Positions 1,543 to 12,211 of a stretch of DNA of 53,860 nucleotides are shown here, piece after piece. Numbering within the stretch: the stretch's first letter is position 1; each line of letters begins with the position of its first letter. Made by a program: the position numbers and the translations under genes. The stretch comes from an uncultured Clostridia bacterium (GTDB lineage Bacteria; Bacillota; Clostridia; Oscillospirales; Ruminococcaceae): contig CAMWMN010000003.1 of the NCBI GenBank assembly GCA_947175385.1, positions 1-53,860 on the forward strand, written 5' to 3'. The notes under the pieces are model-generated. The model ran no database searches. It had not been told where the DNA came from and saw only the letters and a list, made by a program, of their open reading frames with translations.

Positions 1543-2412
1543 TTATTTCCTAAAATCCGCGCGGATAAACGGCGCGTTTTTCTCCTCGGAAATTAGCTGT
1601 TTATACAGCTCGGGGCGGCGGTAGGAGTTTCCATGAACCTCGCGCGAACGGTATTCCCTGATCATATACATATCAAGCTCCGCGAGGTAAATACCCTCTT
1701 GCTCCACCGCCTCCAGAACGCAGGTATCGCGCGAACCGGGCATATCCGGCAGATACGCAACTCCGTCAAACGCGCTCGAATGCCCGTTGCAGTTGGAATA
1801 AGGCGCGGGATAATTGCAAGTCGCGATTGCCGTCATATTCTCGTATGCCCGCGCACGGAGCTGCGACAGACGATTTATCTCCATCGGACATGCGTTCGGC
1901 ACAAGAATTACCTCCGCGCCTTTAAGCATCAGAATCCGCGCGCTTTCCGGGAATTCCCTGTCATAGCAAATCATCGCGCCGACCTTTACATTTCCGCCCT
2001 CGGTATCCAAATCGCAGACGAGAAATTCGTTACCGTGAGTCAACACGCGCTCGTACCCGAAGTCTCAGGTATGTACCTTCGCGTAGGTGAATTTCCGCTC
2101 GCCGTGCCTGTCGAACAGCGTTATGCTATTCCTCGGCAGCGGCGAAAATTTCTCAAGAAACGTAATCCCGATTGCCATATTCAGTTTTTTTGCCAGTTCC
2201 CCGAACGTGTTTACGAACTCGCTGTCCGCGCTTACGGCAAGTGAATTTGGGTCGGCTTCGGGGATTTGATAGCCGCAGCTCCACATTTCCGGGAAAAGCG
2301 CAATGTCCGCGCCCATTTGTTTCGCCTTTTCGCACGCGGATTTTCCAAGCTCCAACTGTTCATTCAACGTATTTTTCGGTAACAATTGCAGTAACGCGAT
2401 TTTCAACTTCAT
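1543..2412 (-). pseudogene. Carbon-nitrogen hydrolase (nitrilase family) interrupted by in-frame TGA
   Basis: A nitrilase-superfamily amidase of 289 residues if read through one TGA at 2065-2067. The two halves lie in the same frame with no indel: the first ends in the catalytic-Lys motif KVHT (Lys112) and the second resumes with DFGYE. Family members I know usually have Cys where the TGA stands (KVHTCDF). The triad is otherwise complete: Glu42 (FPEMW), Lys112, Cys150 (ICYDREF). The likely reading is a TGC/TGT to TGA nonsense change, or a sequencing error, making a recent pseudogene. Selenocysteine is possible but weakly supported. It is the last gene of the ABC-importer operon, 12 bp after the ATPase gene. 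Family substrates include carbamoylputrescine, omega-amides and nitriles; the actual one is unknown. Confidence 0.75.
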
Positions 2413-2424
2413 AATTTCCTCCAG

Positions 2425-2991
2425 TCATAATCTCACAATTTCGTCTGCCAGAAATTCACACTCGGAAATATCGTGAGTGACAAAAACGGTTGTTTTCCCG
2501 ACGATTTTTTCCTTGCAGTAATTCATCACAAGTTGCTTGGTGTCCTCGTCCAGCCCCTTGAACGGCTCATCAAGGAATAAAATATCGTACTCCGCCAACA
2601 GTGCGCGTAGCAGCGCCACGCGGCGTTTCATTCCGCCAGAGAGCGTCCGCGCGGGGGAGTTTTCAATGCCCTCCAGACCCACGGTCGCAAGCTCCGCAGC
2701 GATTTGCAGCTTGGGAATCCGCTTGCCTGTCACAAGGCGGATATTCGCGGAGGCAGTGAGATTCTCGCATAGGCGGTTCTCCTGAAACAACACGGAGAGC
2801 CGCTCCGAGCCGCGTATGACATTTCCGCTGTCAGGCTGCTGAATCCCCATAAGAATATCCAATAGCGTGGATTTTCCGCAGCCCGATTTCCCCAGAACAG
2901 CCGTTACCGCGCTGCTTTTGAACTCATGGGAAAAATCCGAAAGCACCGTGTTATCCCCGAAGCTCTTGCATATTTTTTCGGCTTTAAGCAT
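2425..2991 (-). CDS. ABC importer ATPase (nitrate/sulfonate/pyrimidine type)
   Basis: The cytoplasmic ATPase of an importer of the SsuB/TauB/ThiZ type. All motifs are present: Walker A GKSGCGKST (34-42), Q-loop Gln70, signature LSGGMKRR (from 118), Walker B LFLDEP (about 138-143) and switch His173. At 188 residues it is shorter than the usual 230-260, because the C-terminus stops soon after the H-loop. The start chosen is the ATG at 2991, which has GAGG six nt upstream; a GTG at 3003, overlapping the permease stop by 4 bp, is the alternative. It pairs with the permease directly upstream. Confidence 0.88.
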   Translation of the reverse strand: MLKAEKICKSFGDNTVLSDFSHEFKSSAVTAVLGKSGCGKSTLLDILMGIQQPDSGNVIRGSERLSVLFQENRLCENLTASANIRLVTGKRIPKLQIAAELATVGLEGIENSPARTLSGGMKRRVALLRALLAEYDILFLDEPFKGLDEDTKQLVMNYCKEKIVGKTTVFVTHDISECEFLADEIVRL

Positions 2992-2999
2992 TCCGCACC

Positions 3000-3746
3000 T
3001 CACATTCGCTCAATCCGCCGTTGAAGCAGGTTTACAAGCGCGATGAAAATCCGCTCGCAGAGCCAGCTCAACAGGATAATCACCGTTGTCCACGCGAATA
3101 AATCCGCTGTCTCGAGATAGACCTTGGACATATACAATCGCTCACCGATTGACCCGGACGGGATTCCGATTACCTCAGCCGCAACGCCCGATTTCCAACA
3201 CAGCCCAATTGCAAGCCGCGACGCGGAACGGAAATACGGCAAGAGCTGCGACAGATACACTCCCGCAAACCGCCGCCCGAACGGGATTTTGAACACTCTC
3301 GACATCTCTTCGAGGTTGGGGTCGAGATTGTCAATTCCCTCCAGCATATTCGCGCAGACAATCGGAACGCAAATCAGAAATGACACAAGCACGGATAAAT
3401 CCTTTGAGCCAATCCAGATAAGCGCGAGAATCGTGAACGATGCCACAGGAATGGATTTCATTACGGAAATCAGCGGCGCGAACAGTATTCTGATGAACTT
3501 AACTTTCCCCGAAACCACTGCCAGAATCGTTCCCGTTGTCAGTCCGAGCGCGAATCCAAGCAGAATCCGCGCCATAGAGAACAGAATGCTCTTCCAAAAT
3601 TTTTCTTCGCGAATCAGCTCCCACAAACGTCTTGCGACATCAATCGGTGTTACCAGAATAATTCTGCTGTCAATGCTCATCGCCAGAATCTGCCAGAGAA
3701 TCAGCCACGCCAGAACGCTTGCTGCAATCATCAGGGCTTTTTTCAT
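3000..3746 (-). CDS. ABC importer permease (SsuC/TauC/ThiX type)
   Basis: A 248-residue inner-membrane permease of the BPD_transp_1 fold. It has an N-terminal hydrophobic segment (about 5-22), further helices from about 58 to 125, the EAA-like loop region around residues 143-165, and a last helix near 215-235. It forms the translocation channel for the binding protein encoded upstream and the ATPase encoded downstream. The ribosome binding site is a weak GGTGA. A terminator-like hairpin separates it from the binding-protein gene, so it is probably made at a lower level. Confidence 0.88.
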   Translation of the reverse strand: MKKALMIAASVLAWLILWQILAMSIDSRIILVTPIDVARRLWELIREEKFWKSILFSMARILLGFALGLTTGTILAVVSGKVKFIRILFAPLISVMKSIPVASFTILALIWIGSKDLSVLVSFLICVPIVCANMLEGIDNLDPNLEEMSRVFKIPFGRRFAGVYLSQLLPYFRSASRLAIGLCWKSGVAAEVIGIPSGSIGERLYMSKVYLETADLFAWTTVIILLSWLCERIFIALVNLLQRRIERM

Positions 3747-3794: not shown

Positions 3795-4889
3795 TTAATT
3801 ATTATTGTAGTAGAAATCATCGCCGGGGAGCTTTCCGCCGACCGCCGCAGGGTCAGTATCAGACAGCACCTTGAGATAGCCCGAGAGCTTGGTTTTCAGC
3901 TCATCGCCCGTAATGCACACGATATTGCAGCTCGGGAGAGCCTTTTTCGCAACTGCCTCGGGAACGATATCGTACTTGCCAACCAACTTCGCGCCCTCGT
4001 CAACATTGGTGTTCACGTAATTTACCGAATCCGCGTAACGCTCCAGAAACTCGTTTACCGCCTCGGGATACTGCTCCGCGAACTCCTTGCGAACAATCGC
4101 ACCGCCGGTAATCATTACGCTGTCCAGCTTGAGGTTATCCCACTCCTTGTTGAGATCGAGCACGACCTTGACGTTCTCGTTCTTGGTCTGCGCGGTGGTA
4201 ACGAACGGCTGCGGCAGCATTGCCACACAATTCTCGCCCATCAGCATTGCCTGAAGACACTCGGCGTGTTCGCTTTTCCACTCAATGGTAACGTCCTTTT
4301 CGGGGTCAACATTATTACTCTTGAGGATAAAGTTCAGTGCGTATTCGGGTGTTGAACCTTTACCCGCAGAGTAGATGGTCTTGCCTTTCAAGTCCGCAAC
4401 TGACTTTACGGTTTCGCCGTTCTCGCAGATGTACAGCACACCCAGCGTGTTCACGGCGCAAGCCTGTACTTTGCCCTCGGTCTTGTTGTACAGAACGGAG
4501 CACAGATTCGCGGGAACGCACGCGATGTCAATATCGCCCTTTGCAACCAACGGAGTGATTTCATCGGGAGCGGCATAGATGTTGAACTCATAGCCGTAAT
4601 TGTTTGTTTCATTGTCGTCCATCAGCTTTACCAAGCCCATTGCAGTCGGTCCCTTAAGCGCGGCAACACGGAACTTATCCGGCTTTGGAGCGGAGGTATT
4701 ATCGCTTGTCGTATCGGAGCTTTCGGAATCGCCGGTTGAATTTGCGGTGCTCTCGTCTGCGGTCGATACAATGGAGGAATCACCCGCATTGTCCGAGCTG
4801 TTCGAGCTTCCGCCATTGGAGCAGGCGGTAAGCGAAAACACGCACATTAGCGCGGCAAACGCGCCGGTTAAAATCTTCTTTGTTCTCAT
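3795..4889 (-). CDS. ABC importer substrate-binding lipoprotein (SsuA/ThiY-like)
   Basis: An extracytoplasmic solute receptor anchored by lipid. The signal peptide ends in the lipobox LTAC (Cys23), followed by a Ser/Asn/Asp-rich linker to about residue 70. The mature part is a periplasmic-binding-type II fold of the NMT1/SsuA kind: a KGPTAMGL strand-helix, GDIDIACVP, and a DLKGKTIY hinge region. The substrate cannot be read from sequence; relatives bind sulfonates, nitrate, guanidine derivatives or thiamine pyrimidine precursors. The start is the ATG at 4889 with AAAGGA upstream; a longer frame reaching 4970 would run through the terminator hairpin of the leader and is rejected. The gene lies about 35 nt after that terminator. 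Confidence 0.88.
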   Translation of the reverse strand: MRTKKILTGAFAALMCVFSLTACSNGGSSNSSDNAGDSSIVSTADESTANSTGDSESSDTTSDNTSAPKPDKFRVAALKGPTAMGLVKLMDDNETNNYGYEFNIYAAPDEITPLVAKGDIDIACVPANLCSVLYNKTEGKVQACAVNTLGVLYICENGETVKSVADLKGKTIYSAGKGSTPEYALNFILKSNNVDPEKDVTIEWKSEHAECLQAMLMGENCVAMLPQPFVTTAQTKNENVKVVLDLNKEWDNLKLDSVMITGGAIVRKEFAEQYPEAVNEFLERYADSVNYVNTNVDEGAKLVGKYDIVPEAVAKKALPSCNIVCITGDELKTKLSGYLKVLSDTDPAAVGGKLPGDDFYYNNN

Positions 4890-4924
4890 AACTGTTGTCC
4901 TTTCTTTTTTTGCGGCACGCGCGC

Positions 4925-4949
4925 AAAAAGCGCGTCCCGAAAGACGCGC
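4925..4949 (-). terminator. Terminator of the structured leader RNA
   Basis: On the minus strand GCGCGTC pairs with GACGCGC (4943-4949 with 4930-4936, 6-nt loop) and TTTTT follows (4925-4929). It ends the structured RNA 35 nt before the binding-protein start. It is either the RNA's own 3-prime end or the expression platform of a riboswitch. Confidence 0.8.
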
Positions 4950-5209
4950 AACAATTATAACTACGCGCACAAACGCGTAATCTTCCTGTTTGCTGTCTTT
5001 CGGCTCAATTGCGATTACCGCGAAATTTTGCCGTTAGTATACGCGAAACCCTCATATTTCAATTCGCAAACCGAAAACCGTGCGTACTTCACTAACGCTT
5101 CGTCCACACTAGCCGGGCAGCGCTTTCTACACTTTCGTTTCGGTCGCGCTGCCCGCTTTTGCGGCTTGCCTTGTCCATTGGCATCCCTTTGGTCTGATTT
5201 AGTTTCGCA
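4925..5209 (-). ncRNA. Large structured RNA (orphan riboswitch or stand-alone ncRNA)
   Basis: A non-coding minus-strand transcript of about 285 nt between a consensus promoter and an intrinsic terminator. A closing helix GCGAAAC/GTTTCGC (5202-5208 with 5043-5049) joins the 5-prime end to a site 160 nt away. Inside are a TGCC/GGCA hairpin (5180-5183 with 5167-5170), a perfect 9-bp stem (5146-5154 with 5115-5123) with a purine-rich 22-nt loop, and a GCGT/ACGC hairpin (5095-5098 with 5082-5085). CGTTAGT (5091-5097) can pair with ACTAACG (5032-5038), a likely pseudoknot. A further stem GATTAC/GTAATC (4977-4982 with 5013-5018) precedes the terminator. Neither a thiamine-box nor a guanidine-I signature is visible. 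It could be a known large Bacillota RNA such as the raiA motif; I cannot verify that from memory. Confidence 0.7.
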
Positions 5210-5214
5210 TTAAC

Positions 5215-5243
5215 ATTATAAATCATTTTTCCCCGTTTGTCAA
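5215..5243 (-). promoter_or_regulatory. Perfect consensus promoter of the structured RNA
   Basis: TTGACA (5238-5243), 17-bp spacer, TATAAT (5215-5220) on the minus strand. The predicted start, near 5209, is at the first base of the closing helix of the RNA. A perfect consensus suggests strong constitutive initiation, with control after initiation. Confidence 0.9.
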
Positions 5244-5254
5244 GGGGTATTCGG

Positions 5255-6586
5255 TTATTTTTTTTCGTTTTTATTTTCCGATTTTTGTTTCTTTATGAAA
5301 GAAAACGCGCTCTTTTTCGGCGGCTCGGATTCCTTGGGCGATTCGAGCGGGGCTTCTGGCGAAGCCTCGTATACATAATCCGAGGTGATGTAATCCACAT
5401 TTCCGACATACTGTGAGGTGTCTGGTGGTAGATGTCGCCTTTTTAGCTTGTTCTCGACTATGTCCTTAATCAGCATATAGATTACCGCACACACAGGCAC
5501 TCCCAATAACATTCCCGGAATCCCGAACAATCCGCCTCCGATTACAATTGAGATAAGAACCCATACGGCGGGCAACCCGGTGGAATCTCCCAAAATCCAT
5601 GGTCCGATAAAGTTTCCGTCTATCGTTCCCACAACTCCGTTGATTACCACAAGCCATATCGCCATTATAGGATGTCCGGAAACGATCAACAAAAAACAGC
5701 ATGGTATTAGACCGAGTATCGGACCAATTACAGGAATCAAATTGAACACAAACATAATCATTGCCATTAGTGGAGAATACGGCATTCCAAAAATCAAGCA
5801 GCAGAAGAAAAGGATAAGCGCAGCTACAAACGAATCAATGATTCTTCCAACAATTGAGTTGAGGAATTTTTCACTTGAGCGGCGACACACCTTAAGAAAC
5901 CGCTGAGCTAATTCGGGTTTCGTTACTGCGAACAGCAGCTTTTTCGCCTGACCTACAAACATCTCTTTCTTAGCAAGAAGATATACCGAGATTGTAAGCC
6001 CGAAGAAGATGTTCTTTAACGCGTCCAATACCGACCAAATTCCCGAGGCAATATTCCCCGCGAATCCCATAATATCTGATGAGTGTTCCTTCCAGAAATC
6101 TGTGAGGAAATTGCCAATGTCATCGAGCGGATTTCCCAAAAATTCCGCAAGCTGCGGATACTTATCCGAGAGCTTGAGAACAAACTTATGAGCAGAAGCA
6201 ATATAATTATCCATATTGCTGAAAAGCACGGCAATGTTAGTTATCAGTTGCGGAATCACCAGAATGACAATCAGCGCAAGAACTAACAGCACGGTAAGCA
6301 TTGTAAGCGTCAGCGAAAACACACGCGCTCTTCCGCGAGCCTTATCATTTTCGGAGCTTGACCACTTTTTGAACATTCCACGTTCAATCTTCATCATCAG
6401 TGGATTTAACAAATATGCGCAGAAAATTCCGATGATGATGGGTGTGGCAACAGCAGTGAAAAACGCGAGCTTTTCAGATACCTTCTCGTGATTGTAAATA
6501 AGCATAATCACAAATGCGCTGAGAACAATAGTTCCGAACGCATATGCGGCGATGGTGAAGTATTTTTGATTCCAGTTTATTTTCAT
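5255..6586 (-). CDS. AI-2E family transporter (PerM/YtvI-like membrane protein)
   Basis: A 443-residue polytopic membrane protein of the AI-2E exporter/PerM family. Two N-terminal helices (about 12-32 and 36-60), a third near 90-112, a long amphipathic loop (about 120-215), and a C-terminal bundle with the family-typical NLIPVIGPILGLIP and GGGLFGIPGMLLGVP segments (about 300-375) are visible. The C-terminal 70 residues are hydrophilic and Pro/Glu/Lys-rich. Family members are linked to signal export or to Na+/H+ exchange; the cargo here is unknown. It has its own promoter and appears to be a single-gene transcript. Confidence 0.88.
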   Translation of the reverse strand: MKINWNQKYFTIAAYAFGTIVLSAFVIMLIYNHEKVSEKLAFFTAVATPIIIGIFCAYLLNPLMMKIERGMFKKWSSSENDKARGRARVFSLTLTMLTVLLVLALIVILVIPQLITNIAVLFSNMDNYIASAHKFVLKLSDKYPQLAEFLGNPLDDIGNFLTDFWKEHSSDIMGFAGNIASGIWSVLDALKNIFFGLTISVYLLAKKEMFVGQAKKLLFAVTKPELAQRFLKVCRRSSEKFLNSIVGRIIDSFVAALILFFCCLIFGMPYSPLMAMIMFVFNLIPVIGPILGLIPCCFLLIVSGHPIMAIWLVVINGVVGTIDGNFIGPWILGDSTGLPAVWVLISIVIGGGLFGIPGMLLGVPVCAVIYMLIKDIVENKLKRRHLPPDTSQYVGNVDYITSDYVYEASPEAPLESPKESEPPKKSAFSFIKKQKSENKNEKK

Positions 6587-10817: not shown

Positions 10818-10825
10818 ATAATGTA

Positions 10826-11010
10826 ATTGATAGAGGCGCGGAATTGAAAAGTAGCGCGGCGGGCGGTAAATCCGCTTTACAGCTTCGGAAGCTGCGGCGC
10901 AAAAGGCAATTTCGCCGAGGAATGTACATTTCCGAGAGTGTGCATATCCGGTTGTGCGTCGAATAGGCGTATGACTGTCATCGAGATGCTTGATGGAGTG
11001 CTATCGCAAT
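10826..11010 (+). promoter_or_regulatory. Lysine riboswitch (L-box)
   Basis: The order of conserved blocks matches the L-box: GATAGAGGCGCG at the 5-prime side, an AGTA turn, AAAGGCAATTTCGCCGAGG in the core, ACTGTCA, and TGGAGTGCTATC closing P1 (10829-10833 with 11001-11005). P2 and P3 hairpins are visible between. An intrinsic terminator follows at 11034. The class binds lysine and turns off downstream genes by termination; the downstream asd-dapA-dapB genes fit this exactly. Confidence 0.92.
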
Positions 11011-11033
11011 ATTTTTGCAGCATTAAAAGCATT

Positions 11034-11128: not shown

Positions 11129-12211
11129 ATGAAACAACAGTACAAAGTAGGAATTATCGGCGCTACGGGAATGGTAGGTCAGCGTTTCGCAACGCTGCTC
11201 GAAAACCACCCGTGGTTTAATGTGGTGGCTCTGGCGGCTTCTCCGCGGTCGGCGGGAAAGACCTACAAGGAGGCTGTCGGCTCAAGATGGCTGATGGATA
11301 CCCCCATGCCCAAATCCATGGAGAACATCATCGTGAACGATGCAACCGCAGACGTTGAGGAAATCGTTTCCAAGGTGGACTTCGTGTTCTGCGCGGTGGA
11401 TATGAAGAAGGACGAAATCAAGGCTCTTGAGGAGCGTTACGCAAAAGCGGAATGCCCTGTAATGTCCAACAACTCCGCACATCGTTTCACTCCCGATGTT
11501 CCGATGATTATCCCGGAGGTAAACCCCGACCATGCGGCTATCATTGAATCTCAGCGCAAGCGTCTGGGCACTAAGCGCGGCTTTATCTCGGTAAAGTCCA
11601 ATTGCTCGATCCAGAGCTACGTTCCCGCACTGTCGCCGCTGCGCAAGTTCGGAATCACCGAGGTTCTCGCGTGCACATATCAGGCGATTTCCGGCGCGGG
11701 CAAGACGTTTGAAACGTGGCCCGAGATGGTGGATAACCTGATTCCGTTCATTGGCGGCGAGGAGGAAAAATCCGAGCAAGAGCCGCTGAAGGTCTGGGGG
11801 CACATTCAGAACGGCGAAATCGCCAAGTGCGACAAGCCGCAGATCACCACGCAGTGCCTGCGCGTTCCCGTATCCAACGGACATTTCGCGGCAGCATTCG
11901 TGAGATTTGAGAATAAGCCCTCAATGGACGAAATCAAGAAAATCTGGGCGGAATACAAGGGAGAGCCGCAGGAGCTGAATCTTCCGTCTGCGCCCAAGCA
12001 GTTCCTCAACTATTTTGAGGAGGATAATATGCCCCAGGCGAAGCTCCACCGCAATCTTGAGGGCGGTATGGCGATTTCTATCGGCAGACTGCGCCCCGAT
12101 ACACAGTACGACTACAAGTTCGTTTGCTTGTCGCACAACACCCTTCGCGGAGCAGCGGGCGGCGCGGTCGAAATGGCGGAGCTGCTTGCCGCTAAGGGTT
12201 ATTTGGATTAA
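11129..12211 (+). CDS. asd: Aspartate-semialdehyde dehydrogenase
   Basis: Reduces aspartyl phosphate with NADPH to aspartate semialdehyde, the branch metabolite for lysine, threonine and methionine. The 360-residue protein has the nucleotide-binding GATGMVG (11-17), the catalytic Cys159 in KSNCS, and an SNGH motif whose His252 fits the general base. Its spacing and motifs (SNCS, a long C-terminal part with SIGRLRPD) look like the archaeal/fungal type of the enzyme rather than the common bacterial type. It is the first gene after the lysine riboswitch, with an AGAGAGGA ribosome binding site. No aspartate kinase gene is in the window. Confidence 0.95.
   Translation: MKQQYKVGIIGATGMVGQRFATLLENHPWFNVVALAASPRSAGKTYKEAVGSRWLMDTPMPKSMENIIVNDATADVEEIVSKVDFVFCAVDMKKDEIKALEERYAKAECPVMSNNSAHRFTPDVPMIIPEVNPDHAAIIESQRKRLGTKRGFISVKSNCSIQSYVPALSPLRKFGITEVLACTYQAISGAGKTFETWPEMVDNLIPFIGGEEEKSEQEPLKVWGHIQNGEIAKCDKPQITTQCLRVPVSNGHFAAAFVRFENKPSMDEIKKIWAEYKGEPQELNLPSAPKQFLNYFEEDNMPQAKLHRNLEGGMAISIGRLRPDTQYDYKFVCLSHNTLRGAAGGAVEMAELLAAKGYLD

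Follow-up and report, generated by a model that had tools for sequence, protein, structure and literature searches.

A purine-loop hairpin next to an intrinsic terminator: a probable transcription attenuator of the [FeFe]-hydrogenase maturation regulon in Clostridia

What is controlled by a folded RNA that starts at a perfect promoter and stops at a terminator just before the genes of an ABC importer, and what could it be sensing? The question is posed by the minus strand of the window, as we call here the whole stretch of 53,860 nt under analysis. A previous sequence-only reading of this DNA had proposed a perfect TTGACA-17-TATAAT promoter, and this sigma-70 signal is indeed present at positions 5215..5243 (minus strand), where it fits 12/12 consensus positions; a scan of the interval 4000-6500 returned two promoter sites against 3.0 expected by chance, and only the one at 5243-5215 reached 12/12. 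Among the 30 loci of the genus that were examined, 26 have the RNA pattern described below and 25 of these keep the same perfect promoter, the 26th (L027, near a contig end) having no good promoter match. The intrinsic terminator was also correctly called. It occupies 4925..4949 (minus strand; GCGCGUCUUUCGGGACGCGC-U5), with a stem at 4949-4930 followed by T5 and a 5′ arm at 4945-4937 that is the partner of the antiterminator, and the ATG of the binding-protein gene lies 35 nt past its end. The fold predicted for the 285-nt transcript was better than those of 200/200 dinucleotide shuffles (z = -3.8). A conserved structure and an intrinsic terminator are thus found between promoter and start codon, as in a transcription-attenuating cis-regulatory RNA.

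The first gene behind this leader (3795..4889, minus strand) encodes a substrate-binding lipoprotein resembling NMT1, SsuA and phosphonate-binding proteins, families to which its matches are weak; the sole solved structure retrieved by sequence was 3hn0. It is followed on the same strand by an ABC permease (3000..3746; Pfam BPD_transp_1) and an ABC ATPase (2425..3003; Pfam ABC_tran). Past the ATPase, the minus-strand ORFs 2065-2412 and 1543-2046 are two parts of one carbon-nitrogen hydrolase, a split over window positions 1543-2412 which suggests either a broken gene or an assembly error. This nitrilase-like gene was dropped as a member of the importer unit, as it was not found downstream of the importer in G018, the nearest relative. 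Elsewhere in the window, a lysine riboswitch (10823-11011, plus strand; 99.6 bits) lies upstream of an ORF at 11129 that presumably encodes an aspartate-semialdehyde dehydrogenase.

A common RNA was recognised in 26 of the 30 regions upstream of homologues of the binding-protein gene in the genus, and was not seen in L013, L025, L036 and L029, the last of these cut at a contig end. Its parts follow a fixed order, where an end-to-end helix (P1) encloses a first hairpin (H1, CN-GA-CC...GG-AA-NG) and is followed by a second one (H2, CUGA-CGGC-AA...GA-GCCG-AAAG) and by the terminator, a layout that was mostly recovered when 22 genus sequences were folded individually. P1 pairs 5202..5209 with 5042..5049 (minus strand) through 7-8 bp, and in the alignment of the 22 genus sequences it covaries, with two-sided changes in 5/5 pairs; the 7-bp pairing of the 5′ end with a distant site, as advanced before, therefore exists. 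H1 carries purine internal loops like those of H2 and covaries in relatives. In the window only a remnant of it can be recognised by eye (CAGACCAAAGGGATGCCAATGG; 5175..5196, minus strand), and it looks equally degenerate in G018; other sequence stands in its place in L011 and L023, and H1 and P1 are missing or replaced in several members of the family.

The large domain on which the sequence-only reading had put its emphasis fared differently. A stretch of 135 nt (5051..5185, minus strand) holding its 9-bp stem is specific to this species. A DNA match was found in 7/41 genomes (its own and those of 40 relatives), and in the nearest one, G018, the locus is 95-99% identical on either flank of 5051-5185 with 40 nt in place of the 135. 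The sequence thus does contain the 9-bp stem and the smaller hairpins, but they are not conserved, and the 9-bp-stem/pseudoknot domain was unseen in the other genus sequences read. The proposed pseudoknot between 5091-5097 and 5032-5038 is conceivable as part of an alternative fold, with a predicted probability of ~0.24 before the terminator is made and ~0.13 in the full transcript, but its partner segment 5091-5097 is missing in G018 and was seen only in the window species. As this pairing uses the 5′ strand of H2, it would hold that strand in the antiterminated state. Altogether, a structured RNA is real at this locus, although its conserved part is H2 next to the terminator rather than the large domain.

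H2 is the core of the RNA family, supported by a match to model R2, which consists of H2 alone, and by covariation. In the window it spans 4997..5037 (minus strand; CUAA-CGGC-AA ... GA-GCCG-AAAG), and more generally it is a hairpin of ~40 nt with two purine internal loops that follows the pattern CUGA-N4-RA...RA-N4′-RAAG. The R2 match at the window (G000:C3:4996-5038) scored 33.9 bits (E 1.6e-5), the window being itself a row of the model. Its H2 has an A at a nearly invariant position (CUAA) that is occupied by G in 33 of 34 aligned rows; together with the degenerate H1, this exchange suggests that the window copy may be altered in function.

Covariation was computed at two depths. In the 22-sequence genus alignment, which was fitted to the model, 94.5% of the cells are paired, 13 of 21 pairs show two-sided changes and the covariation score is 0.349, against 0.140 for shuffled and at most 0.075 for slid alignments. 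Within the genus, 6/9 pairs of H2 never vary. The wider H2 alignment (A5, 34 rows), with 97.1% of its cells paired, has two-sided changes in 7/9 pairs and a covariation score of 0.498, compared with 0.178 after shuffling and no more than 0.126 after sliding, on rows that, with the exception of the window, came from a scan requiring pairing. A5 omits two doubtful rows (L091, L095), a duplicate of L047 (L115), a row with a long loop (L079), rows with a stem other than 4 bp, and, for fewer near-copies, L015, L017, L019 and L023 plus identical rows. A pairing-unbiased test was done with a pattern naming the unpaired purines only. In the 400 nt upstream of 80 TM1266 genes this pattern found 23 candidates, 15 of them fully paired, and in 70 family regions it found 15, of which 7 were paired; a 1.55-Mb control taken from both strands of the same 80 loci gave 43 candidates and 2 paired ones. 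Covariation on homologues, suggested before as a check, was found for H2, P1 and H1, and H2 joins a covarying secondary structure to conserved unpaired nucleotides, as riboswitches do.

The link of this hairpin to hydrogenases came from a weak match. A model comprising P1, H1 and H2 (R1) was too genus-specific, and over 197 genomes of the family it matched 6, namely 3 of the genus and 3 marginal ones. Two of the marginal matches (G168, G112) fall inside long ORFs, look like chance and were rejected. The third (G121) has the H2 architecture with a CACC/GGUG stem before a gene of the TM1266 family (TIGR03959, 'iron-only hydrogenase system putative regulator'), a gene present in 99/197 family genomes. 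H2 was then found upstream of TM1266 in many genera, with other stems such as CGCC/GGCG, CAUC/GAUG, CGUC/GACG, CAG/CUG and more. A strict scan demanding pairing located H2 in 19/30 genus regions, 9/70 family regions and 19/80 named TM1266 regions, while control sequence from the 80 named loci, taken as 3882 windows of 400 nt, gave 3 hits. When R2 was searched on those 80 loci, 40 hits (E<=0.05) were obtained in 34 of them, 14 being model rows and 26 not; all 40 lie on the gene strand, and six sit between hydE and hydG. Among organisms with a name, the motif is carried by Massilioclostridium coli, by Loigolactobacillus rennini DSM 20253 and by a Desulfovibrio MAG, for instance.

R2 was also searched in 391 Clostridia genomes irrespective of genes, and matched at E<=0.1 in at least 57 of them, counts that are lower bounds given the strict filters and the sampling of genomes. 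The gene context was read at the best match from each of the 30 best of these 57 genomes, one of them being the window. At all 29 best-scoring loci other than the window, TM1266, hydE, hydG, hydF, aspA or FecCD adjoin the motif by tblastn, the reference proteins having been confirmed as HydE, HydG, HydF and aspartate ammonia-lyase. Immediately behind the motif stands TM1266 at 13 loci, hydG at 8, hydE at 4 and hydF, aspA and FecCD at one each; at the remaining locus (L214) hydE precedes the motif and the contig stops beyond it. In 15 of the 29 loci a gene other than TM1266 is directly downstream, so that these are not model rows, while two of the 29 (L209, L210) did give model rows. As the RNA stands beside hyd genes in 29/29 best-scoring loci of unrelated genomes, it can be assigned to the regulon for H-cluster maturation. 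The presence of aspA in this list fits a supply of nitrogen to the bridge of the H-cluster by ammonia-lyases, which can play this role and whose genes are associated with hyd operons, as reported in PMC11736057.

This wider distribution changes the initial picture of the locus. An orphan cis-RNA ahead of an ABC importer had been correctly recognised, but to call it a riboswitch for the ligand of the importer does not cover an element that elsewhere precedes hydE, hydG, hydF, aspA, TM1266 and FecCD, and the idea of an RNA belonging to the importer alone was dropped once H2 had been found before hyd genes. We conclude that the RNA is probably a cis-acting transcription attenuator, apparently undescribed, of the [FeFe]-hydrogenase maturation regulon in Clostridia, in which H2 would be the sensor.

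In six loci (L128, L165, L167, L171, L172 and L181, that of L165 cut at a contig end), the motif precedes a cluster of TM1266, FecCD and a FecE protein fused to TM1266, with HydE in some of them, followed by NifH-like and nitrogenase-like proteins. The FecE-TM1266 fusion, the NifH-type and the nitrogenase-like proteins were assigned by Pfam. A nitrogenase-like system would thus be controlled by this RNA as well.

How such an attenuator would work is suggested by the complementarities around H2. The strand CCGAAAGAC (4995..5003, minus strand) overlaps the 3′ strand of H2 and is a perfect 9-bp complement of 4937-4945, the 5′ arm of the terminator, so that the hairpin and this antiterminator are mutually exclusive by computed pairing. 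For a transcript reaching position 4937, folding predicts the antiterminator, stacked on a hairpin in the linker between H2 and the terminator (4959..4982, minus strand; from sequence and folding), and for the full transcript it predicts H2 together with the terminator. These predicted states are graded, as H2 has a probability of ~0.5 before the terminator is made and ~0.7 after, and the antiterminator pairs keep ~0.3 in the full transcript. Over 48 cases, some of whose automatically assigned terminators, such as that of L189, are probably mistaken, the 3′ strand of H2 pairs with the arm of its own terminator at a mean of -13.0 kcal/mol, compared with -9.3 for foreign terminators and -7.8 for shuffled strands; in the median case 7% of the foreign terminators pair equally well, and for several cases most of them do. 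On average, then, terminators favour their own H2, which is what cis attenuation leads one to expect.

In the mechanism that we propose, a formed H2 would act as an anti-antiterminator, leaving the terminator free to form and transcription to stop, whereas an open H2 would release its 3′ strand (CCGAAAGAC) to pair with the terminator 5′ arm, and the operon would be read. From folding energies and analogy we infer the direction of the switch, by which an effector stabilising H2 would turn the genes off. A comparable leader is the one bound by PyrR, where a purine-loop hairpin blocks an antiterminator and lets the terminator form. The proposed logic is alike but sequence and genes differ, and the PyrR model (RF00515) gave 15.5 bits on one family member, against a threshold of 54. 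Two-hairpin antiterminator systems, such as the targets of ANTAR proteins and the RAT elements of LicT and SacY, likewise have a short hairpin or two, of which the second shares sequence with the terminator; these conserve a terminal hexaloop, while in H2 it is the internal purine loops that are conserved.

Scanned against Rfam 15 (4227 models), the motif gave no family match, whether in the window, in 16 loci of the genus or in 14 more distant ones, in agreement with the earlier statement that no recognisable riboswitch class is present. Over threshold there were only the lysine riboswitch mentioned above and, in other loci, 5S rRNA and a tRNA, and two short permissive scans gave hits that all remained far below the family thresholds. 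Covarying 5′ leaders with an intrinsic terminator as expression platform and genes of transport or metabolism behind them have been collected as orphan riboswitch candidates (e.g., PMC11109978), and the H2 RNA resembles them in all these features. No motif linked to hydrogenase genes turned up in passages of that work or by term searches in the main texts of PMC8632094, PMC8040213 and PMC6429828. Likewise, literature searches on TM1266, hydE/hydG, hydrogenase maturation, orphan riboswitches and structured-RNA discovery yielded no RNA regulator of hyd operons, nor did passages of PMC3543383, PMC10418091 and PMC3596361. The operons of hydE, hydG and hydF with aspA are treated by PMC11736057, and the motif precedes such genes in many Clostridia. 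Our claim of novelty extends to Rfam 15 and the literature searched here, and an earlier listing without a name is possible.

The genus of the window presents a second puzzle, since its genomes carry the RNA and mostly lack the genes with which it is associated elsewhere. The motif was found at E<=1e-3 in 35/43 genus genomes, in single copy except for two in tandem in G044, and an R2 match at E<=0.001 was missing in the other 8; four of these 8, a clade (G004, G012, G015, G022), have the importer and no detectable motif, and there the leader may have diverged. HydG exceeds its cut-off in 6 of the 43 genomes, HydE in 7 and HydF in 7, and none of the three does in 34, including the window genome. 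HydG-like matches below the cut-off reach 194 bits (cut-off 312) and are, we assume, ThiH-like, and HydE-like ones near 146 bits (cut-off 255) occur in G055, G057 and G058; we take these proteins as relatives and not maturases, although a diverged maturase may exist. [FeFe]-hydrogenase matches (3 to 6 each) were obtained in 12/12 genomes searched, all from the 34, and in all 12 a long hydrogenase protein keeps the H-cluster motifs TSCSPGW, MPCTAKK and EIMACPGGCVNGG; the scan found none of these motifs in two further paralogues (L263, L264). The gene at G000:C11:29041-29898 and its homologues L251-L262 thus represent [FeFe]-hydrogenases with intact H-cluster motifs beside no HydE, HydF or HydG over cut-off.

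The binding protein of the importer is found in 38/43 genomes at E<1e-100, plus G042, where it was scored as present since the end of the contig truncates the gene, and it occurs in all 36 species where HydE and HydG are both below cut-off. In the resulting table 3 genomes have both importer and hydE/G, 36 the importer only, 4 hydE/G only and 0 neither (Fisher p 2.8e-4, not tree-corrected). The 4 genomes without importer all have HydE, their completeness being 69% (G003), 83% (G043), 76% (G046) and 92% (G017). Among the hydE/G-positive genomes, G017 and G046 have the motif before hydE, and G043 and G056 have a variant with a 3-bp stem before TM1266-hydE-hydG-hydF; the motif of G003 is close to the end of its contig, and no gene was found downstream of it; in G042 it was not found, and in G048 the only R2 match (E 0.24) is on a different contig. 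On our reading, most of the genus has lost hydEFG, and the same kind of RNA now drives an ABC importer, in many relatives together with TM1266. Where hydEFG has been lost, the same RNA on the importer means that the importer probably serves the same need, which suggests that it takes part in maturation and may stand in for some of that pathway.

A stronger form of this idea, unlikely in our estimation, would be that most species of the genus build [FeFe]-hydrogenases without HydE/F/G, the importer bringing in material for the cofactor and the RNA sensing when there is enough and shutting the import. A candidate cargo would be, for example, an organometallic diiron precursor or an iron-carbonyl-cyanide block released by neighbours.

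An explanation that competes with a role of the importer in maturation supposes that the two are unrelated and that an operon with no connection to maturation took over the RNA at the loss of hydEFG. This could well be the case, though we place it somewhat short of an even chance. The importer belongs to a broad family (NMT1/SsuA-like), three genomes of the genus (G042, at a contig end, G048 and G056) have it in addition to hydE/G, the Fisher test is not tree-corrected and three of the four importer-less genomes are less than 90% complete. Against such a capture speak the finding that 0/43 genomes are devoid of both importer and hydE/G, and the scattering of the hydE/G state over a tree of 40 genomes built on a GTPase, presumably Der-like, where 6 changes were counted against 6.6 with shuffled labels. 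Moreover, importers of this kind adjoin hyd genes elsewhere (L188, L189). A binding protein 31% identical to that of the window has TM1266-HydE-HydF as its neighbours in a MAG of the Atopobiaceae, and in a MAG of the Clostridia another NMT1-type importer follows the motif, with hydE on one side and hydF on the other.

Concerning the effector, a small ligand reporting the supply state of the H-cluster or of an iron cofactor is most likely, with the TM1266 protein as a close rival. According to this rival, H2 would be the binding site of TM1266, which would bind RNA and govern attenuation of its own operon and of the rest of the hyd regulon, in the manner of PyrR with its binding loop; we regard it as possible and hold it tentatively. 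TM1266 is the commonest gene directly behind the motif (13/29 loci) and is short (a 76-position model; ORFs of 83-88 aa in 6/7 loci listed), its domain is also fused to a FecE-type ATPase (PF21699), as would fit a ligand-sensing domain, and the hairpin may be tandem (L038/L382). Against TM1266 as the binding partner, another gene is directly behind the motif in 15/29 loci, and the one TM1266 gene detected in the window genome (G000:C32) has no motif in front. In addition, among 10 genus genomes searched for TM1266 the gene was found in 9, and the tenth, G050 (given as 90% complete), has the RNA with no TM1266 match. To our knowledge, RNA binding is not known for the TM1266 family. H2-like hairpins were observed in tandem or doubled upstream of TM1266 in L382 (G044) and L121, an arrangement suggestive of two binding sites.

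Two further explanations concern the attenuator itself and have little left in their favour. That the leader is an ordinary one with a terminator, the likeness of its hairpins reflecting the descent of neighbouring hyd operons with no sensing role, would agree with the lack of variation in 6/9 pairs of H2 within the genus but is very improbable, because from family to family the two strands of the stem change in step with the loop purines unaltered, and because the motif directly precedes six different genes. The separately made, raiA-type structured small RNA that had been offered as a second possibility, with the terminator before the importer by chance, is scarcely credible either: a strong promoter and a terminator do bracket a folded RNA of 285 nt, but Rfam gives no hit, the large fold is not conserved, terminators pair better on average with their own H2 than with foreign ones, and the links of H2 are with the terminator, through pairing, and with the hyd operons, through position and strand.

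A cis-acting attenuator sensing through H2, which we consider the probable identity of this RNA, would give Clostridia of the gut and of the environment a common RNA switch for their H-cluster maturation genes. Sharing of this switch among the maturation genes makes its effector testable, and it raises the question of what a cell measures when deciding on the building of [FeFe]-hydrogenase. In the genus of the window, [FeFe]-hydrogenases with intact motifs occur together with the importer and without HydE/F/G over cut-off, which bears on maturation without the known maturases. Synthetic diiron mimics are able to get into cells and to activate apo-hydrogenase there; how they do so is so far unexplained (PMC10369191). 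If the import of cofactor material were true, it would amount to cross-feeding of a precursor of the hydrogenase active site.
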